Origin: Agromyces mariniharenae
Lineage (GTDB): Bacteria; Actinomycetota; Actinomycetes; Actinomycetales; Microbacteriaceae
DNA: 64,000 nt
NCBI RefSeq assembly: GCF_008122505.1
Contig: NZ_VSSB01000001.1
Span: 666,891 to 730,890 of the forward strand
Direction of reading: 5' to 3'
Shown: positions 43,547 through 53,381 of the stretch, piece by piece
Numbering within the stretch: the first letter of the stretch is position 1
How the letters are laid out: the number at the start of each line of letters is the position of its first letter
Program-made: the position numbers and the translations under genes
Notes under the pieces: model-generated
The model's database searches: none
Seen by the model: only the letters and a program-made list of their open reading frames with translations
What the model was told of the DNA's origin: nothing

Positions 43547-44169
43547 GCTCGTACACCATCCCCTACGTCGTCGAGAAGCGCGGCAACGCCGAGCGCACGA
43601 TGGACGTGTACAGCCGCCTGCTCTCCGAGCGCATCGTCTACCTCGGCACCGAGATCGACGACGGCGTCGCGAACGTGCTCATCGCGCAGTTCCTGCACCT
43701 CGCATCCGAGTCGGGCGACGTGCCGATCAGCCTCTACCTCAACTCCCCCGGCGGCTCGCCCGGCGCGGCGCTCGCGGTCTACGACACGATGCAGCACATC
43801 CGGCCGGATGTCGCGACGACGTGCGTCGGCCAGGCGGGCGGCCCGGCCGCGGTGCTGCTCGCGGGCGGCGCGAAGGGGCAGCGGGCGATCCTCCCCCACG
43901 GCACGGTCACGCTGCACCAGCCCTCGACGCAGGGACGCGGCACCGTGCCCGACCTCATCCTGCACGCCGACGAGGTGCTGCGCGTGCGCGCCGACCTCGA
44001 GGCGGCGCTCGCGGCCGACACCGGGCGCGACGTGCTGACGCTACGGCACGACACCGATCGCGACCTGATCCTGCCGGCGGCCGACGCGGTGGCCTACGGG
44101 CTCGCCGACCACGTGCTCACGGCACCGGTGCCGGTGAACGCCGGGTCGTCGCCTGCGAGGGTCCGATGA
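43543..44169 (+). CDS. ClpP-like subunit lacking the catalytic serine
   Basis: 208 residues, ClpP fold with LYLNSPGGSPGAALAVYDTM and LHQP (His125 kept). The nucleophile segment reads CVGQAGGPAAVLLAGG; aligned to GQAASMGA the catalytic Ser is Gly100 (codon GGC, 43840-43842). No other serine is within this loop. It is therefore predicted inactive by itself and probably forms a mixed ring with the upstream active subunit, like ClpR in other lineages. Start overlaps the preceding stop. Its 3' end overlaps the convergent ROK gene by 53 bases. Confidence 0.9.
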   Translation: MSSYTIPYVVEKRGNAERTMDVYSRLLSERIVYLGTEIDDGVANVLIAQFLHLASESGDVPISLYLNSPGGSPGAALAVYDTMQHIRPDVATTCVGQAGGPAAVLLAGGAKGQRAILPHGTVTLHQPSTQGRGTVPDLILHADEVLRVRADLEAALAADTGRDVLTLRHDTDRDLILPAADAVAYGLADHVLTAPVPVNAGSSPARVR

Positions 44170-45115
44170 CGGATGCCGCGGACCAGGTGTCGATGACGTC
44201 GCCGAGCCCGGCCGCCCCGAACGCGAGGATCGCGGCGCCGATGCGGCCCGCCTCGTCGGCGAGCTCGCTCGTGAGCACCTCGGGACGCTCGCGCCACGCC
44301 AGGCCCGCGGTCATCCGCTCGGCGAGCGGCTCGAGCAGCGCGTCGCCCGCGCGCGAGAACCCGCCGCCGAGCACGATGACGCCGGGGTCGAGCAGCAGGG
44401 TGAGGATGTTGAGGCCCTGGGCCAGCACGTCGACCGCCTCCGACCAGACGCGATCGGCGATGGCATCCGATCCGAGGCGGTCGGCGATCTCGCGGGAGCT
44501 GCGTTCGCCGCCGCCGGCCGCCGCGTACCGCCTGGCGAGGCCGGCGCCCGAGACGTAGACCTCGAGGCATCCGCGCTGGCCGCAGGCGCACGGCTCACCG
44601 CCGGCGATCACCGGGATGTGGCCGAATTCGCCGGCGGCGCCCGTCGCCCCGGTCACCGTGCCCCCGCCGGTCACCACCGCGGCGGCCACCCCGGTGCCGA
44701 TCGGGATGAGCACGAAGTCCTCGCGGCCCCGCGCCGCGCCGAATCGCTGCTCGGCGAGACCCGCCGACCGCACGTCGTGACCCACGGCCACCGGCAACGA
44801 GAGAGCTGAAGCGAGCACGTCGAGCAGCGGCATGTCCTGCCAGCCGAGGTTCGACGCGTACCGCACCACGCCGCGCGACTCGTCGACCGACCCCGGCGTC
44901 ACGACCGCCGCGCCCACCGGGATCGTCGCCGCGGCCACGGCGAGGTCGCGCAGTTCGGTGAACAGCTCGACCAGCGCGAGCTCGACGTCGTGCGACGGGG
45001 TCAGGAGGGTCCGCTGCGCGAGGGTTCGCCCGAACTCGTCGACGACCGCGCCCTTCATCGTGGTGCCGCCGAGGTCGACCGCGAGGACGGCCCGGGGACG
45101 GTTCGGGGCGGTCAT
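44117..45115 (-). CDS. ROK-family sugar kinase
   Basis: 332 residues. ATP loop VDLGGTTMKGAVVDEFG (about 14-30), GTGVAAAVVTGG, and the ROK zinc motif CACGQRGCLEVY (C-x-C-x4-C) at about 160-171; no HTH, so a kinase rather than a repressor. Glucokinase, allose, fructo- or N-acetylmannosamine kinases look like this. It is the last gene of a seven-gene overlapping operon with an amino-acid importer, asparaginase II and CutC, so a hexose or amino sugar released from an amino-acid conjugate would fit. ATG 45115 overlaps the cutC stop (ATGA). Confidence 0.88.
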   Translation of the reverse strand: MTAPNRPRAVLAVDLGGTTMKGAVVDEFGRTLAQRTLLTPSHDVELALVELFTELRDLAVAAATIPVGAAVVTPGSVDESRGVVRYASNLGWQDMPLLDVLASALSLPVAVGHDVRSAGLAEQRFGAARGREDFVLIPIGTGVAAAVVTGGGTVTGATGAAGEFGHIPVIAGGEPCACGQRGCLEVYVSGAGLARRYAAAGGGERSSREIADRLGSDAIADRVWSEAVDVLAQGLNILTLLLDPGVIVLGGGFSRAGDALLEPLAERMTAGLAWRERPEVLTSELADEAGRIGAAILAFGAAGLGDVIDTWSAASVIGPSQATTRRSPAPVP

Positions 45116-45882
45116 GCGCACGCCATCGTGTGGTCGAGGACGGCGCGCATGCGGGCGACGAGCACGCCCGAGGTCGCGATGCGGTGGCCGGAATCGTAGC
45201 TCCGCGCGGTGGGCGAGGCGTCGATCGTGCTGGCGATCGCCGCACTGGGCACCGCCGCGCCGGGGCGGAGGTGCACCTCGCGGACGCCGGTCGTCCGCAC
45301 GAGCGCTTCCACGTTGTCGGGACGCACCCCGCCACCCGCGAGCACCGCGATGCGACCCGAGGCGTGCGAGACGAGCGCTGCGAGCCGCGCGGAGCCCTCG
45401 CTCGCGGAAGCGGCCCCACCCGAGGTGAGCACCCGCTCGACGCCGAGGTCGACGAGCTGGTCGAGGGCTGCGAACTGGTCGGGAGTCTGGTCGAACGCCT
45501 TGTGGAAGGTCACCGGCACGTCGCGAGCGACCGCCACGAGGCGCTCGGTGGCCGCGCGATCGATGGTCCCATCGGGCATGAGGGCGCCGACCACGAACCC
45601 GAGCCGCACCGCGGCGGGGCGGGGCAGGGCACGGATCATCCGGATGTCGGCGGCCATCGCCTCGAGCTCGGCGCTGCTGTAGACGAAGTCACCCGGGCGC
45701 TGGCGCACGAGCACCTGCACGCCGACGCGGTGCACGCGGTCGAATACGGCGGCCACCGTGCCGGCGCTCGGGGTGATGCCGCCGTCGCCGAGCGCGGCGC
45801 ACAGCTCGAGGCGGTCGGCTCCGGCGGCCTCTGCGACCGGAGCGCCGTCGACGTCGTCGAGGCAGACCTCGAGCAGCGTCAT
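45112..45882 (-). CDS. cutC: CutC family TIM-barrel protein
   Basis: 256 residues. Family signature at the N-terminus LLEVCLDDVDGAPVAEAAGADRLELCAAL, then GGITPSAGTV, RPRPGDF-like RQRPGDFVYSSAELEAM, VTFHKAFDQ and VLTSGGAASASEG. CutC was first tied to copper tolerance, but that role is disputed, and it is often found with sugar catabolic genes, as here. Placed between asparaginase II and the ROK kinase with four-base overlaps on both sides. A sugar-processing role is an inference from context. Confidence 0.9.
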   Translation of the reverse strand: MTLLEVCLDDVDGAPVAEAAGADRLELCAALGDGGITPSAGTVAAVFDRVHRVGVQVLVRQRPGDFVYSSAELEAMAADIRMIRALPRPAAVRLGFVVGALMPDGTIDRAATERLVAVARDVPVTFHKAFDQTPDQFAALDQLVDLGVERVLTSGGAASASEGSARLAALVSHASGRIAVLAGGGVRPDNVEALVRTTGVREVHLRPGAAVPSAAIASTIDASPTARSYDSGHRIATSGVLVARMRAVLDHTMACA

Positions 45883-46892
45883 CGTGCGGCCACGCGCACG
45901 CGCAGCGCCGCGTCGAGGTCGGCGCCGACGCCGATCGCGCCGACGGGACGGCCGCCGCCGAGCACCGGAACCCGGGCGAGCTCGCCCGCGCCGGAGACGT
46001 CGACGCCGAGCGCGCCGAGCACGGCGAGGGCCAGCAGCGTCGTGGCCCGCGGACTGCCGTCGACGACCTTCATCGCGACGGCGGTGCCGTCGGGCGCCGC
46101 GACGCCGATCACGCCCTCGGCGCCGCCCTTGGCCAGCGCGCCTGGCACCGTCTCCATGAGCCGGGTGTTCTGGTGGCCCGTGCCGCCGACGTGGAACGGG
46201 TGCGCGCGCATGGCGGCTGCGACCTGGCCCGCCGGCGTCGCCGGGCCGGCGAGGACGAGCGCACGGAACGCCTGCGCCAGTCCTCGGACCGTCGTGTCGA
46301 AGAGCGGCGCCCCGCACCCGTCGACGGCGTCGCGGGCGACGGGGACGCCGGTGACCTGCGCCATCGTGCGGCGCACGGCCTGCTGGACGGGATGGCCGTG
46401 GTCGAGGTAGTCGTGCGTCGACCAGCCGTTCGCGGCGCACGCGAGGAGCATCGCGGCATGCTTGCCCGAGCAGTTCATGCGGATGGGCGTCCTCGCCGCA
46501 CCGGCGCGGAGGAGCCGCTCGAAGGTCGGCTCGTCCTCCGGACGATCGGCCGGGCAACCGAGCGCGGATTCGTCGAGGCCGGCGCGGTCGAGGAGGTCGG
46601 CGACCACGCGCACGTGCTCGTCCTCGCCCGTGTGGCTGCCCGCGGCGATCGCGAGCTCGGGGCCGCGGAGCTCGGCGCCCTCGGTCAGGCACGCGAGCGC
46701 CTGCAGCGGCTTCACCGTCGAGCGCGGAAGGATGCGCGCGTCGGGAGCTCCGAGTTCGAGCAGCGTCTCGCCGTCGGGTCCGATCGCGACGATCGAGCCG
46801 AAGTGACGGCTCTCGATCATGCCAGAGCGTTCGACGACCGCGAGCTCGGCGAGCGCGGGATCGGTCGGGTGCGCGGTGGACGGGTGGGGCAT
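45879..46892 (-). CDS. asparaginase II family (PF06089-type) amidohydrolase
   Basis: 337 residues of the Rhizobium etli-type L-asparaginase II family: VVERSGMIESRHFGSIVAIGPDG, RSTVKPLQALACL (with the Ser/Lys pair of the active site), AAGSHTGEDEHV, MNCSGKHAAMLLAC and DGCGAPLFDTTVRGLAQAF. It hydrolyses the side-chain amide of asparagine or related amides to aspartate. Coupled translationally to the ABC permease upstream (TGATG) and to cutC downstream (ATGA). With a polar amino acid importer and a sugar kinase, a glycosyl-asparagine-like substrate is possible; plain asparagine use is the simpler alternative. Confidence 0.9.
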   Translation of the reverse strand: MPHPSTAHPTDPALAELAVVERSGMIESRHFGSIVAIGPDGETLLELGAPDARILPRSTVKPLQALACLTEGAELRGPELAIAAGSHTGEDEHVRVVADLLDRAGLDESALGCPADRPEDEPTFERLLRAGAARTPIRMNCSGKHAAMLLACAANGWSTHDYLDHGHPVQQAVRRTMAQVTGVPVARDAVDGCGAPLFDTTVRGLAQAFRALVLAGPATPAGQVAAAMRAHPFHVGGTGHQNTRLMETVPGALAKGGAEGVIGVAAPDGTAVAMKVVDGSPRATTLLALAVLGALGVDVSGAGELARVPVLGGGRPVGAIGVGADLDAALRVRVAAR

Positions 46893-47815
46893 CACGAGGC
46901 CTTCCTGGCGGCGCCCGAGAGGGCGGGGAGACGAGGGAGTCGTGGCAGCGGCGAGCCCGTGCGATGCAGGCGGTGCTGCAGGTGCGCCGCGAGCGCGGAG
47001 AGGCTTCCGTTGACGACGAGGTAGATGAGCGTCACCACGAGGTAGGTCGGGATGAGCAGGTGGAGGTACGTCGCGAGGACCTGGCCGCGGTAGAGCAGTT
47101 CGGTGAAGGCCACGATGAACCCGAGCGACGTGTCCTTCATGAGGCTCACGAGCTGGGTCACGAGCGACGGCGTCACGTTGCGCACGGCCTGGGGCAGCAC
47201 GACGAGTCGCGTGGCCTGCGCGGAGCGCAGCCCGAGGCTGAGCGCCGCCTCCCGCTGTCCGCGCGGCAGGCTCAGGACGCCCGCCCTGATGATCTCGGCG
47301 AACACGGCGGAGTTCGCGATCGTGAGCGGGATGGCGAGCTTCCACAGCGTGGGCACGTTGATGCCGATCTGCGGAAGTCCGAACAGCATGAGGTAGATCA
47401 CGAGCAGCACGGGCACGGTGCGGGCGATCTCGATGTACGCGCCGCTCAGGCCGCGGATCCATGGGCGGTGGCTCATGCGACCGAACGCGAGCACGACGCC
47501 GAGGGCCGACCCGAGCACCGCGACCACCACGGTGGCCTCGAGCGTGCCCATGAGACCGACCAGCAGGTACTGCCAGACGGCGGGATCGGTGAAGGGGACC
47601 CATTTCTCGGCGTCGAGCTGCCCGTGGGAGGCGAACTGCCACAGCCCGAGGCCGACGACGACCGCGAACACGGCGCAGCTCACGATGGAGCCGATGAGGT
47701 GACGGCGCTTCGCACGCGGCCCGGGCTCGTCGTAGAGGAAGGCGGCGGCGTACCGGGGTGCCCGGTCCTGGCGGCGGACGGCCGTCGGGCGGTCGGGGAT
47801 GAGCTGGGCGGTCAT
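46892..47815 (-). CDS. polar amino acid ABC transporter permease (GluD-like)
   Basis: 307 residues: a 45-residue cytoplasmic head, about five to six helices, and the HisM-type signature (TVPVLLVIYLMLFGLPQIG; AEIIRAGVLSLPRGQREAALSLGLRSAQATRLVVLPQAVRNVTPSLVTQLVSLMKDTSL). The longer N-terminus and C-terminus resemble GluD of the actinobacterial glutamate importer. Partner of the 47812-48456 permease; its start overlaps that stop by four bases. Confidence 0.9.
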   Translation of the reverse strand: MTAQLIPDRPTAVRRQDRAPRYAAAFLYDEPGPRAKRRHLIGSIVSCAVFAVVVGLGLWQFASHGQLDAEKWVPFTDPAVWQYLLVGLMGTLEATVVVAVLGSALGVVLAFGRMSHRPWIRGLSGAYIEIARTVPVLLVIYLMLFGLPQIGINVPTLWKLAIPLTIANSAVFAEIIRAGVLSLPRGQREAALSLGLRSAQATRLVVLPQAVRNVTPSLVTQLVSLMKDTSLGFIVAFTELLYRGQVLATYLHLLIPTYLVVTLIYLVVNGSLSALAAHLQHRLHRTGSPLPRLPRLPALSGAARKAS

Positions 47816-48456
47816 CGGACGATCGCCACCTTTCGTTCGACCCTGCCGGCGGCGAGCCCGATGGCGAGCGCGATGCCCATGTAGATGATGCCGGCGCTCG
47901 AGAAGATGAGGATGGGCTGGGCGGCCACGAGGTTGATCTTGTTCACGGCGGCGGTCAGTTCGACCACGCCGACCGCGGCGGCGAGGGCCGTGTTCATGGC
48001 GAGCGCGATCATGACATTGCCGATCGGCTGCACGACCGCGCGGAGCGCCTGGGGAAGCACCACGAGGCGCAGCGATTGCGCGAGCGTGAGTCCGAGTGCC
48101 CGGGACGCCTCGAGCTGCCCGACGGCGACCGTGTTCACGCCGCTGCGCACGGCCTCCGAGACGTAGGCGGCCTCGTAGACGATGAGCACGATGATCGCGG
48201 TCGGCGTGAGCGGCAGCATGAGCCCGGCGTCGGGCAGTGCGAACACCGCGAGCAGCAGGAGGGCGAGCAGCGGCACGTTGACGAAGAACTGCACGTACCC
48301 GAAGGCGGCGACCCGGAGGGCGCGGATGGGGCTCACCCGGGCCACGGTGACGAGCACGCCCAGCAGGATGGAGCCGACGCCCGCGATGACCGCCATCATG
48401 AGGGTCGTGCCGAGCGCCTCGAGCACGAGGCCGAGGTTGTCGATGAGGGGATTCAT
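47812..48456 (-). CDS. polar amino acid ABC transporter permease (GluC-like)
   Basis: 214 residues, five helices. HisM-type loop YVSEAVRSGVNTVAVGQLEASRALGLTLAQSLRLVVLPQALRAVVQPIGNVMIALAMNTAL. Forms the heterodimeric channel with the next gene. ATG 48456 is chosen (MNPLIDNL); a GTG at 48462 is possible. 72 bases after the binding-protein gene. Confidence 0.9.
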   Translation of the reverse strand: MNPLIDNLGLVLEALGTTLMMAVIAGVGSILLGVLVTVARVSPIRALRVAAFGYVQFFVNVPLLALLLLAVFALPDAGLMLPLTPTAIIVLIVYEAAYVSEAVRSGVNTVAVGQLEASRALGLTLAQSLRLVVLPQALRAVVQPIGNVMIALAMNTALAAAVGVVELTAAVNKINLVAAQPILIFSSAGIIYMGIALAIGLAAGRVERKVAIVR

Positions 48457-48528
48457 GAGCACTCACTGGCGCGGTGCGCCGGTCGGAGCGGGTGCGGCGG
48501 GCCGGGCGGCTCGCCGCACCCGCGTCGA

Positions 48529-49470
48529 TCAGGAACCGGGGACGGAGCCGATCTCGGGTGCGGTGGGCACGTCGGAGTCGGTGACGGTGCCGAGGGTGGT
48601 CTTCCAGGCCTCGGCCCAGTGGCCGCTCTCCTGGATCTCGAGCAGCCAGTCGTTGATGAACGACTTGAACTCGTCGTCGCCGTGCTTGAGGCCGATGCCG
48701 TAGGGCTCCTTCGTGAAGGGCGTGCCGACGACCTTCAGCGCGGAGTCGTTGGCCGCATTGCTCGCGAGCAGCGTGTAGTCCTGCACGTACGCGTCGCCGC
48801 GGCCCTGGAGGAGTGCCTGCACGGCGGCCGGGTCCGTCGCGAACGCGGTGACGTTGGCCGTGGGCGCCTGCTCGGGCACGGCGGTGACGGCGGGCGTGTT
48901 CGCACCGACGATGACCTCCTTGCCGTCGAGGTCCTCGATGCCCTTGATCTCGTCGTTGTCGCTCTTGACCGCGACGGCCAGGCCTGACTCGAAGTACGGG
49001 CCCGCGAACGAGACCTGCTCGGCGCGCTCGGGCGTGATCGTGTACGTGTTGAACACGACGTCGACCGTGTCGTTCTGGAGCATCGCCTCGCGCGTCTCGG
49101 TGGCCGGCGGGACGATCTCGACGTTCGGCTCGCCCAGGATGTAGATCGCGAGGAGCTTCGCGAGGTCGGCGTCGAAGCCCTCGACGCTGTCGGGGTCGGT
49201 CGGGTTCTGCTGGGACAGGAGCGGCGCGTCGAGCGCCTCGGCCACGACGAGCGTGCCGCGCTCCCTGATCCGCTCCATCGTCGAGCCGGGCAGGATCAGG
49301 TCATCCGCGGCGACCGGCGCGTCGGCGAACACGGAGCTCGTCTCGGCCGCGGCATCCGCGTCGTTCTCGTCGCCCGGCAGGCTCGTGGTGCTCGAGCACG
49401 CGGCGAGGGCGAGGGCTGCGGCGGCCAGTGCGGCGCCGGCGACAGCCTTCCGTCGTGTGATCCGGATCAT
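48529..49470 (-). CDS. polar amino acid ABC transporter substrate-binding lipoprotein (GluB-like)
   Basis: 313 residues. Twin-Arg-like start MIRITRRKAVAG, hydrophobic core and lipobox LAAC (Cys25). Type 3 (SBP_bac_3) domain: MERIRERGTLVVAEALDAPLLSQQNP, VEGFDADLAKLLAIYILGEPNVEIVPPATETREAMLQNDTVDVVFNTYTITPERAEQVSFAGPYFESG. The FNTYTIT and threonine/arginine pattern is that of glutamate/glutamine binders; specificity for a modified amino acid cannot be excluded. Confidence 0.9.
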   Translation of the reverse strand: MIRITRRKAVAGAALAAAALALAACSSTTSLPGDENDADAAAETSSVFADAPVAADDLILPGSTMERIRERGTLVVAEALDAPLLSQQNPTDPDSVEGFDADLAKLLAIYILGEPNVEIVPPATETREAMLQNDTVDVVFNTYTITPERAEQVSFAGPYFESGLAVAVKSDNDEIKGIEDLDGKEVIVGANTPAVTAVPEQAPTANVTAFATDPAAVQALLQGRGDAYVQDYTLLASNAANDSALKVVGTPFTKEPYGIGLKHGDDEFKSFINDWLLEIQESGHWAEAWKTTLGTVTDSDVPTAPEIGSVPGS

Positions 49471-49548
49471 GGGTGGTGCGTCCTTCCTCTGGGGTGGTTG
49501 GGGTGGTGAAGGTCTCAGGCGACCGCGCGAGGCCGGTCGACAGGGGGC

Positions 49549-50301
49549 TCAGTGCGACAGCACGGAGGCCAGGAACGAACGGGCGCGCTCGGAGTCGGGC
49601 GCATCGAAGAACCGATCGGGGGCGGCCTCCTCGACGATCTGCCCCTGGTCCATGAAGACGACCCGGTCCGCGGCCCGGCGCGCGAAGCCCATCTCGTGGG
49701 TGACGACGATCATCGTCATCCCCTCCGCGGCGAGCGAGGTCATCACGTCGAGCACCTCGCCGACCATCTCGGGGTCGAGCGCCGACGTCGGCTCGTCGAA
49801 CAGCATGACCTTGGGACGCATCGCGAGCGCGCGCGCGATCGCGACACGCTGCTGCTGTCCGCCCGAGAGCTGGGCGGGCAGGTGCCCGGCCTTGTCGGCG
49901 ATGCCGACGCGGTCGAGCAGTTCCATCGCCTCCCGACGCGCCTCGGCCTTGGGCACGCGTCGCACGTTGACGGGCGCGAGCGTCACGTTCTCGAGCACGG
50001 TGCGGTGCGCGAACAGGTTGAACGACTGGAACACCATGCCGACGTCGGCGCGCAACGCCGCGAGGGCCGGTCCCTCGACGGGAAGGAGCTCGCCGTCGAC
50101 CCGGATCTCGCCCGCGTCGACGGACTCGAGCCGATTGATGGAGCGGCACAGTGTCGACTTGCCGGAGCCCGACGGGCCGACCACGACGACGACCTCGCTC
50201 GCGCGGACGGTCAGGTCGATGTGCCTGAGCACGTGCAGCTCACCGAAGTACTTGTCGACACCCCGCAGGCTGACCATGGGCCGGGGCTCCGTTGCTGGCA
50301 T
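49549..50301 (-). CDS. polar amino acid ABC transporter ATP-binding protein (GluA/GlnQ-like)
   Basis: 250 residues: Walker [11 protein letters not shown]-loop MVFQSFNLF, signature LSGGQQQR, Walker B VMLFDEPT and switch VVTHE, all typical of GlnQ/HisP ATPases. First gene of the importer-asparaginase-cutC-ROK operon. ATG 50301 is preceded by GAGGAAAG; an ATG at 50313 has no ribosome binding site. Divergent from the ROK repressor, sharing a 170-base AT-richer promoter region. Confidence 0.92.
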
Positions 50302-50350
50302 CTTTCCTCGCATCGTCGTCGGGTTGTTGCGGCGAGCGTACTAACATCAC

Positions 50351-50391
50351 TCCAAAGGTGCAAGTATGCATTTTCTTCATCCAGTTTTGGA
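50351..50391. promoter_or_regulatory. divergent promoter region with TCCAAA/TTTGGA arms
   Basis: TCCAAA (50351-50356) and TTTGGA (50386-50391) flank an AT-rich core containing GCATTTTCTTCATC. The region between the ABC operon and the ROK gene stands out from the GC-rich surroundings. The symmetrical ends may be the ROK repressor's half-sites; the 29-base spacing makes this tentative. Confidence 0.45.
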
Positions 50392-50471
50392 CGAATGGAC
50401 GTACAGTAGTCTCGGACGCACCACTCAGCGTCGAGATCTCGCGTCAACGTGGAGGAAGGGATCCGGGGGCG

Positions 50472-51644
50472 ATGAACGGCTCGAACGACCTGCTTCGGCA
50501 TCAGGCCTCGGCCGGCGCCATGCTCGGTCTCATCCGCAGCGGGCAGGCGCGTTCGCGCGCCGAGATCGCGCGCGTCACCGGACTGTCGCCCACGACGGTG
50601 GCGCAGCGCATCGACGTGCTCATCGACGCGGGCTACGTGCGCGAGGCGGGCATGGGCGTCTCGCAGGGCGGTCGCCGTCCCCGCGCGCTCGAGGTCGACC
50701 CGACGACCGGCGTCGTGTGCGCCGTCGACCTCGGCTCGCAGCACGCGACCTTCGGGCTCCTCGACCTCTCGGGCCGGCTCATCGCCACGCGTCGCGAGCG
50801 CATCGACATCGCCGACGGCGTCGAGCCCATCCTCACCTGGATGGTCGGCGTCGCCGACGCCCTCGTCGCCGAGCACGCCGAACCGGGGCAGCGCCTTCGC
50901 GGATACGGCATCGGGGTGCCGGGGCCGGTCGACTCCCGCACCGGGACGCTGGTGTCGCCCTCGCGCATGCCGGGCTGGAACGGCGTCGACGTCGCCGCCG
51001 CGGTGTCCGACCTCACCGAGCTCCCCACCGTCGTCGACAACGACGCGAACCTCATGGCGCTCGGCGAGCACGGGCTCGATCGGAGCATCGACGACCTCGT
51101 CTTCGTGAAGGTCGGGTCGAGCATCGGATGCGGCGTCATCGCGTCGGGCTCGCTGCACCACGGCCACCACGGCATGGCGGGCGACATCAGCCACGTCACC
51201 GTCCCCGACGCGCCGCCGGTGCTGTGCTCATGCGGGCGCACCGGATGCCTCGACGCCGTCGCCGGGGGCCGGGCGATCGTCCGCGAGCTCCGCGACGCCG
51301 GGGTCCAGGTCGAGAGCGTCGACGACGTCCTCGCGCTCGCGAGGGACGCGCATCCACTCGCGACCCGGATGCTCCGCGAGGCCGGCACCCGGGTCGGGCG
51401 CGTCCTCGCGACGATCATGAACTTCTTCAACCCGCAGCGCCTCGTCCTCGGCGGCATCCTCGGCGAGGCCGAGGCGTTCGTCGCGGGCGTGCGGTCGGCG
51501 ATCTACCTCGAATGCCTCCCGATGATCACCGACGAGCTCGACATCGTCGTGAGCCAGGCGAAGGAGCACGCCGGCATCCTCGGCGCCGGAGGTCTCGTGC
51601 TCGACCGGATCTTCGACGTGCACGAGCTCGAAGCGGCACGATGA
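50472..51644 (+). CDS. ROK-family transcriptional repressor
   Basis: 390 residues. Winged HTH at about 5-70 (MLGLIRSGQARSRAEIARVTGLSPTTVAQRIDVLIDAGYVREAG), then a ROK domain with VVCAVDLGSQHATFGLLD, GIGVPGPVDSRTG, the H-x-H-H-G-M-A-G-D region and zinc motif CSCGRTGCLDA. The ATP loop (DLGSQHATF) lacks the canonical GGT, as in repressors. It stands head to head with the importer operon and overlaps the next gene (ATGA), so it probably senses the sugar of this locus and controls both arms. Confidence 0.92.
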   Translation: MNGSNDLLRHQASAGAMLGLIRSGQARSRAEIARVTGLSPTTVAQRIDVLIDAGYVREAGMGVSQGGRRPRALEVDPTTGVVCAVDLGSQHATFGLLDLSGRLIATRRERIDIADGVEPILTWMVGVADALVAEHAEPGQRLRGYGIGVPGPVDSRTGTLVSPSRMPGWNGVDVAAAVSDLTELPTVVDNDANLMALGEHGLDRSIDDLVFVKVGSSIGCGVIASGSLHHGHHGMAGDISHVTVPDAPPVLCSCGRTGCLDAVAGGRAIVRELRDAGVQVESVDDVLALARDAHPLATRMLREAGTRVGRVLATIMNFFNPQRLVLGGILGEAEAFVAGVRSAIYLECLPMITDELDIVVSQAKEHAGILGAGGLVLDRIFDVHELEAAR

Positions 51645-52579
51645 CGGCGCACCGCATCGCCATCGTCGGCGCCGGGCGCATGGCGACGGCGCACGCCGGC
51701 GCATGGCGCCGGGCCGGGCTCGGCGACGCGATCGCCTACGTCGTGTCCCCCCGCACCCGACCGCAGCTCGAGGCGGCGCCGCTCGCCCGCTGGGTCACCC
51801 ACCTCGACGACGTGCTCGCCGACGAGGCGGTCGACATCCTCTCGGTGTGCACGCCCACCCCGTCCCATGCCGAGATCGCGATCGAGGCGCTCCGCCATGG
51901 ACGGAACGTGCTGCTCGAGAAGCCCATCGCGCTGACCGTGGCCGACGCCGAGGCGGTCGCGGAGGCCGCCCGTCGCAGTACGGGTGTGCTGATGGTCGCG
52001 CAGGTCGTCCGGTTCATGCACCGGTACGCGGAACTCGTCGACCGGGTCGCCGACGGATCGGTCGGCAGGGCGCGCGCGGTCCGCGCCGCCCGACTCTCGT
52101 CGGGCCCGCCCAGCGGGTCGTGGTTCGACGATGAACGGAGTTCGGGCGGGGTCCTGGTCGACTTCGCCATCCACGACTTCGACCAGGCGAACCTGCTGCT
52201 CGGCACCCCGGTCGCGGTGCGCAGCGTCCGTGTCGGCGAGAGCGCCGGCGGCTTCGGCGCACCGGTCGCGACGACCGTGGAGTACGCCGGCGGCGGTGTC
52301 GCCCAGGTCTTGAGCGTCGCCGACCTGCCCGCCGATTCCGAGTTCCGCACCGCACTCGAGATCGTGGGAACGACCGGAACCGACGCGATCGCCTCGGTCG
52401 ACTCCGCCGACCCGCCCGACGACCCGTTCCTCTCGCAGGCCCGGTACTTCCTGGAGTGCGTCGAGTCGAGCGCCGACCCTCGCCGATGCCCGACGGAGGA
52501 CGCGATCGCGGCCCTCCGCGTCGCGCTCGCCGCGCGCACGTCGCTCGCGACGGATGCGCGCGTCCCGCTCGTCGACTGA
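51641..52579 (+). CDS. Gfo/Idh/MocA-family oxidoreductase
   Basis: 312 residues. Rossmann IAIVGAGRMATAHAGAW (about 6-22), VCTPTPSHAE, EKPIALT, and DFAIHDFDQANLLLG, where Asp/His act in catalysis. Short form of the family. Translationally coupled to the ROK repressor and followed by an SDR, hence likely one of two oxidation steps on the sugar handled by this locus. Substrate unknown. Confidence 0.88.
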   Translation: MTAHRIAIVGAGRMATAHAGAWRRAGLGDAIAYVVSPRTRPQLEAAPLARWVTHLDDVLADEAVDILSVCTPTPSHAEIAIEALRHGRNVLLEKPIALTVADAEAVAEAARRSTGVLMVAQVVRFMHRYAELVDRVADGSVGRARAVRAARLSSGPPSGSWFDDERSSGGVLVDFAIHDFDQANLLLGTPVAVRSVRVGESAGGFGAPVATTVEYAGGGVAQVLSVADLPADSEFRTALEIVGTTGTDAIASVDSADPPDDPFLSQARYFLECVESSADPRRCPTEDAIAALRVALAARTSLATDARVPLVD

Positions 52580-52613
52580 AGCCGAAGGCCCGGTCCCGAC
52601 CAGAGGAGTCCCA

Positions 52614-53381
52614 ATGAACGCACTCGACACGTTCTCCCTGCGCGGCAGGACCGCGCTCGTCACCGGGGGCAGCCGGGGGCTCGGCCGGGCCATGGCGCAG
52701 GCGCTCGGCGAAGCCGGTGCCGCCGTCGCGGTCAGCGCGACGACCGCGGAGGCCGCGCAGCGCGCCGCCCGAGAGCTCGCCGACGCCGGGATCCGGGCGT
52801 ACGGCGTGCGCCTCGAGGTCTCCGACGTCGACGACGTCGAGCGCGCCGTCGCCGAGGTGGAGGACGAGTTCGGCCCGATCGACGTGCTGGTGAACAACGC
52901 GGGGATCGGCATCGGCGGCGCGGCGTTCGACGCGCCCGACGAGGTGTGGCGCGACGTCATGGCGGTCAACGTCGACGGCGTCTGGTACTGCAGCCGCGCC
53001 GTGGCCAGGCGCATGGCCGAGCGCGGCGGCGGCGCGATCGTGAACATCGGGTCGATGTCCGCGCAGATCGTCAACCAGACGAGGTGGCAGGTCTCGTACC
53101 TCACCTCGAAGGCCGCCGTGCACCACCTCACCGAGGGGCTCGCGGCCGAGTGGGCGCCATACGGCATCCGCGTCAACGCGATCGCGCCCGGCTACTTCCT
53201 GACGGAGATGTCGCCCGTCGACCAGCCCGAGTTCACGCCCCACGTCGTCGATCCGGCGCCGATGAAGCGCTATGGACTCCCCCACGAGCTCGGGCCCGTG
53301 GCGATCTTCCTCGCCAGCGACGCCTCGAGCTTCATGACCGGCTCGATCGTCAAGGTCGACGGCGGCTTCACGCTGTTCTAG
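52614..53381 (+). CDS. short-chain dehydrogenase/reductase
   Basis: 255 residues, classical SDR: TGGSRGLG (cofactor), NNAGIG, catalytic Ser in NIGSMSAQI, Y-x-x-x-K in SYLTSKAA, and APGYFLTEMS after the active site. C-terminal VDGGFTLF completes the fold. Typical of gluconate 5-dehydrogenase or similar sugar-alcohol dehydrogenases; substrate unassigned. GAGGAG ribosome binding site before ATG 52614. Third gene of the ROK-Gfo/Idh-SDR arm. Confidence 0.9.
   Translation: MNALDTFSLRGRTALVTGGSRGLGRAMAQALGEAGAAVAVSATTAEAAQRAARELADAGIRAYGVRLEVSDVDDVERAVAEVEDEFGPIDVLVNNAGIGIGGAAFDAPDEVWRDVMAVNVDGVWYCSRAVARRMAERGGGAIVNIGSMSAQIVNQTRWQVSYLTSKAAVHHLTEGLAAEWAPYGIRVNAIAPGYFLTEMSPVDQPEFTPHVVDPAPMKRYGLPHELGPVAIFLASDASSFMTGSIVKVDGGFTLF

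Follow-up and report, generated by a model that had tools for sequence, protein, structure and literature searches.

Genes at the locus

The DNA analysed here is a 64,000-nt stretch of the Agromyces mariniharenae contig NZ_VSSB01000001.1 (positions 666,891-730,890; hereafter the window, whose own positions serve as coordinates) from a 4.08-Mb genome of the family Microbacteriaceae. We describe a locus within it that consists of two divergent arms. Seven genes read leftward and encode an ATP-binding cassette (ABC) ATPase, a family-3 binding protein, two permeases, a PF06089 asparaginase II, CutC and a ROK kinase; three read rightward and encode a ROK repressor, a Gfo/Idh oxidoreductase and an SDR. 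The ten genes had been proposed in an earlier, sequence-only reading of this DNA, and all ten reading frames were confirmed in place, each scoring above the Pfam cut-off of its named family:

44117..45115, minus strand: ROK-family sugar kinase, a putative N-acetylglucosamine (GlcNAc) or 1-amino-GlcNAc kinase (PF00480, 202.8 bits; start ATG at 45115 or GTG at 45121)
45112..45882, minus strand: CutC-family TIM-barrel protein, a putative amino-sugar enzyme (PF03932, 210 bits)
45879..46892, minus strand: class-3 'L-asparaginase II' of a separate clade, a putative glycosylasparaginase (PF06089, 341.7 bits)
46892..47815, minus strand: ABC permease 2, polar amino-acid type (PF00528; HEQRo_perm_3TM above cut-off)
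47812..48456, minus strand: ABC permease 1, polar amino-acid type (PF00528; HEQRo_perm_3TM above cut-off)
48529..49470, minus strand: solute-binding protein of family 3, lipoprotein-like, kin of glutamine and other amino-acid binding proteins (PF00497, 76.9 bits)
49549..50313, minus strand: ABC ATPase, GlnQ type, start codon uncertain (PF00005; top NCBIfam model GlnQ, 319.5 bits against a cut-off of 379, which is not passed)
50314..50471, no strand: AT-rich divergent promoter region between the two arms
50472..51644, plus strand: ROK-family repressor with a winged helix, NagC/Mlc-like (PF00480 and HTH_24)
51641..52579, plus strand: Gfo/Idh/MocA oxidoreductase, accessory (PF01408)
52614..53381, plus strand: SDR oxidoreductase, accessory (PF13561)

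The junctions, read directly, are ATGA between the two permeases, between the asparaginase and CutC and between CutC and the ROK kinase, and TGATG between permease 2 and the asparaginase, so the tight linkage claimed for the last five leftward genes is borne out by overlaps of 1 or 4 bases. Gaps of 78 and about 70 bases separate the ATPase from the binding protein and the binding protein from the permease, respectively, and on the rightward arm the repressor and Gfo/Idh genes share an ATGA, a 4-base overlap. SBP_bac_3, two HEQRo permeases and a GlnQ-type ATPase (by its best match, the GlnQ model itself not being passed) together make up a polar amino-acid ABC importer. The operon also has its sugar kinase: the ROK protein carries DLGGT, EFGH and CxCGxxGCxE, which we take to be kinase motifs. 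The asparaginase belongs to class 3 by its PF06089 score, two Ser-Lys pairs and a Cys-Lys-Cys zinc site; its motifs align with the ReAIV structure 8cly, Ser80 and Lys263 being mapped by motif only, and residue roles in class-3 L-asparaginases have been described (PMC8602277).

Two tandem ClpP-family protease genes (PF00574; 42365-44169, plus strand) adjoin the ROK kinase; reading from the opposite strand, the second of them extends 53 bases into the 3' end of the kinase gene.

Recurrence of the module and its nag genes

An asparaginase at least 60% identical to that of the window is present in 24 of the 398 Microbacteriaceae genomes searched, the window's own included; among the 10 same-genus genomes listed, the window's is the only one to have it. 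A second scan, over named genomes and retaining the 80 best, contributed further loci, among them some of Leifsonia, Agreia, Frigoribacterium, Georgenia, Klenkia, Micromonospora, Nakamurella, Planotetraspora, Nonomuraea, Actinomadura, Microbispora and Streptomyces. The related set comprises 56 loci with a close asparaginase (53-78% identical); the duplicates L040 and L041 (of L130 and L134) and Kribbella L064 were left out of it. A partner gene was counted if it lay within 9 kb and above set identity limits. The control set consists of 53 loci around other PF06089 genes (46-53% identical), which are not all housekeeping paralogues, and five of these control loci span less than 12 kb.

Both permeases and the binding protein lie nearby in 53 of the 56 related loci, the ROK repressor in 50, CutC and the ATPase in 43 each and the ROK kinase in 26, with Gfo/Idh (9/56), nagB (8/56), SDR (3/56) and nagA (2/56) far behind. 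None of the 53 control loci has any partner gene within the same distance and above the same limits; below those limits they hold 16 unrelated ATPases and three SDRs. The sequence-only reading had proposed a search for conserved gene order and had named an order unique to this strain as a refutation; the order is not unique, since the partners recur in the related loci and are missing from the controls. Its treatment of the ten genes as one unit holds for eight, which form the conserved core, and fails for the Gfo/Idh and SDR genes, which are accessory, lineage-specific extras. The loci L051-L055, L057 and L060-L062 (Nonomuraea and one Planotetraspora) are reduced, with the permeases, binding protein, asparaginase and ROK repressor and without CutC and the kinase.

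Among the related loci with nagB, the gene lies behind the kinase in the same orientation in five (L130, L131, L132, L138 and L141, the last then also having nagA), lies behind rokR-SDR on the other arm in two (L125 and L127) and belongs to an adjacent, convergent nagA-nagB pair in one (Klenkia L044). All six NagB proteins scanned pass the curated models NF001684 or TIGR00502; of the NagA proteins, that of L141 passes the nagA model and that of L044 fails it. The window's genome has a nagA above cut-off on the same contig, about 2 Mb from the window, and within the same 20 kb a NagB that is 72-76% identical to five cluster NagBs and 55% identical to that of L044, so the enzymes leading from GlcNAc-6-phosphate to fructose-6-phosphate are available to it. 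The sequence-only reading had suggested that the substrate is a conjugate of an amino acid and a sugar; because nagB and nagA stand in the operon of relatives, and because NagB scores as glucosamine-6-phosphate deaminase, the sugar of such a conjugate would be an amino sugar. The accessory genes touch this arrangement in two places: an SDR relative (67% in L127) lies between rokR and nagB in L125 and L127, and a Gfo/Idh relative (46%) lies downstream of rokK in L125.

CutC, the asparaginase clade and parallel modules

The window CutC has the family's sequence and fold and is 37-39% identical to the solved Shigella and human CutC proteins. Its predicted model has a pLDDT (predicted local distance difference test score) of 90, and the nearest folds after CutC itself are phosphate-binding barrel enzymes. 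The residues E5, E26, R60, H127, D131 and H204 are conserved, and the charged ones among them would suit an enzyme. Gene fusions are classic evidence for steps of one pathway, and in 12 loci a single stop-free open frame encodes both CutC and the ROK kinase (11 genomes, since L040 and L130 are the same contig); another 17 loci have them as separate genes, like the window. The proteins of L184, L131 and L141 match both Pfam domains. The L184 fusion was searched against 5.8 billion proteins, and scoring of the best 8,000 candidates gave 216 hits; among the 120 clusters listed, 108 have both CutC and ROK domains and 12 have ROK only. One protein, P0103, reads CutC-ROK-NagB, and its NagB domain passes NF001684; this lone metagenome sequence has a ROK match that ends early, and it could be an accident of sequencing or assembly. 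Because they are fused in relatives, CutC and the ROK kinase probably carry out steps of one pathway. In L184 a ROK repressor faces the fusion, and the 19.5 kb of that locus contain no importer or asparaginase match.

The context of CutC is mostly amino-sugar catabolism, and no other copper-named gene occurs in the annotated CutC neighbourhoods examined. This gene company suggests that CutC is an enzyme of amino-sugar metabolism. Firm links of the same kind were not obtained for the Gfo/Idh and SDR proteins: the window Gfo/Idh shares 27-30% identity with the proteobacterial ones encoded near CutC and does not match the one whose gene overlaps cutC in L159, and for the SDR the identity is 30-37%. 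On the Paracoccaceae plasmids L159, L162 and L178, a 4-base overlap joins cutC to a Gfo/Idh gene, with a sugar ABC importer alongside; this may hint at a step that CutC and Gfo/Idh share. A second CutC gene in the window's genome (G000:C2:441470-442078, L151) is 40% identical to the first, with no amino-sugar gene recognised nearby, and a GH2 gene near CutC in Micromonospora L047 may be there by chance.

The window's genome also holds a second PF06089 copy, 49% identical to the cluster asparaginase. In a tree of 109 asparaginases the Microbacteriaceae housekeeping copies form a separate clade of 29; the 55 cluster rows share the other side with 25 rows that lack the cluster, and the cluster label requires five changes and not one.

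Modules of the same kind occur in other phyla with a different amidase. In the alphaproteobacterial plasmid locus L177, LacI, ROK and CutC neighbour a PF01112 asparaginase and an amino-acid ABC system of two permeases, an ATPase and a family-3 binding protein; the PF01112 enzyme scores 128.5 bits to a solved glycosylasparaginase and 96.8 bits to the best solved asparaginase/isoaspartyl peptidase among the matches listed. On three Hymenobacter plasmids a glycosylasparaginase gene overlaps cutC by 4 bases, accompanied by glycoside hydrolase family 92 (GH92) in all three, ROK in two and nagB and GH18 in one; the Hymenobacter volaticus enzyme scores 368 bits to a solved glycosylasparaginase. In Novosphingobium plasmid L171, one strand carries nagA, a SIS gene and CutC, and its complement encodes a TonB receptor, GH92 and glycosylasparaginase. 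It is mainly because two unrelated amidase families occupy the corresponding position in modules of one type that we propose the PF06089 cluster clade to consist of glycosylasparaginases. The loci L171, L172, L173 and L160 (Novosphingobium and Hymenobacter) are plasmid-borne loci for N-glycan utilisation, with GH92 and glycosylasparaginase. A row in the Alkalihalophilus pseudofirmus plasmid L182, made up of a peptide ABC importer, a leucyl aminopeptidase family protein, CutC, an alpha-L-fucosidase and ROK, resembles a glycopeptide version of the module.

Proposed pathway, rival explanations and known systems

Behind an ordinary-looking importer operon is a conserved module, probably for a conjugate of an amino sugar and an amino acid. 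We propose, with a probability that we put at roughly 0.65, that it breaks down either the stump of N-glycoproteins, N4-(beta-N-acetylglucosaminyl)-L-asparagine (GlcNAc-Asn), or a closely related compound. A glycosylasparagine, which the sequence-only reading had named among its possible substrates, is the best supported idea, and the sugar role that it gave to CutC has gained from the same evidence: nagB and nagA in the operon of relatives, the CutC-ROK fusions with the one CutC-ROK-NagB, and the glycosylasparaginase-CutC pairs elsewhere. From the gene order, the families, the fusions and the nag genes we infer a route in which the ABC importer and its binding protein would recognise the free amino-acid end of GlcNAc-Asn and the class-3 'asparaginase' would cleave the beta-amide to give aspartate and 1-amino-GlcNAc. 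The latter would yield GlcNAc and ammonia, the ROK kinase would make GlcNAc-6-phosphate, and NagA and NagB, encoded in the operon in some relatives and elsewhere in the window's genome, would lead to fructose-6-phosphate. The association of the cutC gene with that of the kinase is observed; CutC itself would work alongside the kinase, with the amino sugar or the 6-phosphate of that sugar as substrate, and might accelerate or safeguard a step around 1-amino-GlcNAc or use GlcNAc-6-phosphate. A place in a step common to all GlcNAc use is just as likely, because CutC also occurs in GlcNAc loci that lack the asparaginase. The ROK repressor would, to judge by the divergent arrangement, control both arms. 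We give even odds to the joint proposition that the clade consists of glycosylasparaginases of an unrelated fold and that CutC is an amino-sugar enzyme next to a GlcNAc kinase, probably acting on 1-amino-GlcNAc or GlcNAc-6-phosphate.

If the proposal is true, actinobacteria eat the asparagine-linked stump of N-glycoproteins with an importer and a hydrolase new to that job, and the class-3 asparaginases, which have been studied as possible leukaemia drugs, gain a possible natural substrate. The surprising part, and a testable one, is an amino-sugar enzyme in CutC, a family found in bacteria and humans and long named for copper.

Several observations weigh against this interpretation. The ROK kinase is absent from 30 of the 56 related loci and CutC from 13, two of which (L133 and L139) are truncated by contig ends; eight Nonomuraea loci lack CutC, the kinase and a nearby ATPase, and Kribbella L064 has the asparaginase (55%) with none of the partner genes. 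Of the Microbacteriaceae CutC genes outside the cluster, only three of the 13 fetched lie near nagA and nagB, three of the 18 plasmid CutC neighbourhoods examined show no amino-sugar gene, and glycosylasparaginase occurs without CutC nearby in plasmids of Enterococcus, Sphingomonas and Persicobacter (L174, L175 and L176). Only two near-diagnostic columns (G85 and H240) separate the cluster asparaginases from others, with no clear change at the active site. The endoglycosidase GH85 was found in none of 55 genomes (22 with the cluster and 33 without), a result that is uninformative as to companionship with GH85. The intergenic dyad of the window, TTCATCC..GGACGAA, is not significant (13 of 60 shuffles were as good). 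Across 34 intergenic sequences, those of L120-L122 beat their shuffles (0-1 of 60 as good) and those of L124 and L046 did so less clearly (2 of 60), in a weak test that tried many arm lengths against shuffles preserving single bases only; a shared operator was rejected.

The locus might instead scavenge Asn and Asp through its importer and a true asparaginase in a sugar-responsive operon, so that nitrogen uptake follows the amino-sugar supply, with CutC and the kinase devoted to free GlcNAc. Free Asn is indeed split by ReAIV and ReAV, which are PF06089 enzymes too (PMC10917881), the window binding protein resembles plain amino-acid binders, and in the eight Nonomuraea loci, where CutC and the kinase are both missing, the permeases, binding protein, asparaginase and repressor persist. 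This explanation is nevertheless unlikely, for it leaves unexplained the tight coupling of amidase, CutC and kinase and the same module in an alphaproteobacterium with an enzyme of the glycosylasparaginase type, and the window's genome already holds another PF06089 copy. A little less likely still is another amino-sugar amide or glycopeptide, such as a cell-wall fragment or a glycoamino acid that is longer or carries fucose. CutC occurs together with murQ in L159 and L163 and keeps company with peptide importer, aminopeptidase, fucosidase and ROK in L182, but glycosidase, murQ and peptidase genes are all missing from the ten of the window, and family-3 ABC importers mostly transport single amino acids.

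In the fra system of Salmonella, FraB is a SIS deglycase, FraD a PfkB kinase and FraE an asparaginase. The locus resembles it in joining a kinase to further enzymes for an amino acid-sugar conjugate, the fra route combining kinase and deglycase for fructose-asparagine (PMC4941530). Fructosyl-asparagine or another Amadori or Heyns compound, as the sequence-only reading also suggested, would be converted by the amidase to its aspartate form, phosphorylated by the ROK kinase and split by a NagB-like or CutC deglycase, and a Heyns compound might in principle be within reach of NagB chemistry. We nevertheless rejected the Amadori route as very improbable: the SIS-domain deglycase and PfkB kinase families are both absent from the ten window proteins, the NagB that accompanies the module is, by its score, a glucosamine-6-phosphate deaminase, and NagA is present as well in L141.

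The preferred reading, a module for GlcNAc-Asn, can be set beside several described systems. With ReAIV and ReAV of Rhizobium etli the window enzyme shares PF06089 and the Ser/Lys and zinc-site motifs, and the available text of those papers contains no glycosylasparagine activity of class-3 enzymes (PMC8602277, PMC10917881); it differs from them in belonging to a separate actinobacterial group in an amino-sugar operon. In phytopathogenic Xanthomonas the nix N-glycan genes cluster with cutC (XAC3091), filed under copper metabolism, with an asparaginase (XAC3092) nearby (PMC6718126, PMC5700972), and STITCH links VirK to CutC, nixI and that asparaginase (PMC5700972); these accounts, in their available parts, tell of no amino-acid ABC importer or ROK partner. 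The neighbourhood of cutC and N-glycan genes is thus already in print and the amino-sugar reading of CutC is not: in a literature search of titles and the beginnings of abstracts, with subscription papers and preprints outside its reach, CutC was nowhere tied to amino-sugar catabolism, and cutC and asnA2 were merely entries of an expression table (PMC3146418). The copper role has been doubted for at least one CutC member (PMC4993169). The CutC of the window shares its fold with the annotated copper homeostasis protein, whereas its context here is mostly amino-sugar, with fusions to ROK and once to NagB.

The hydrolase of the alf-2 cluster of Lactobacillus casei is a PF01112 enzyme of the N-terminal nucleophile type. 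The window enzyme, a PF06089 protein, does not belong to that family and may work like the alf-2 hydrolase without being a homologous copy. The alf-2 cluster serves fucosyl-alpha-1,6-GlcNAc-Asn and unites, as the window's is predicted to do, a glycosylasparaginase with a ROK sugar kinase in one regulated cluster: it turns GlcNAc-Asn into Asp and GlcNAc for the kinase, the release of GlcNAc from 1-amino-GlcNAc being described as nonenzymatic (PMC6960285). The statement of the sequence-only reading that no described pathway has this set was therefore too strong, although the alf-2 hydrolase is annotated as a self-processing N4-(beta-N-acetylglucosaminyl)-L-asparaginase, the alf-2 importer is a major facilitator superfamily permease that needs the fucose, the alf-2 regulator is of the GntR type where the window has an ABC importer and a ROK repressor, and CutC, to the detriment of our interpretation, goes unmentioned in the available text (PMC6960285). 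The type of pathway is thus known from L. casei alf-2, and the ABC importer, the non-homologous amidase and CutC are new to it.

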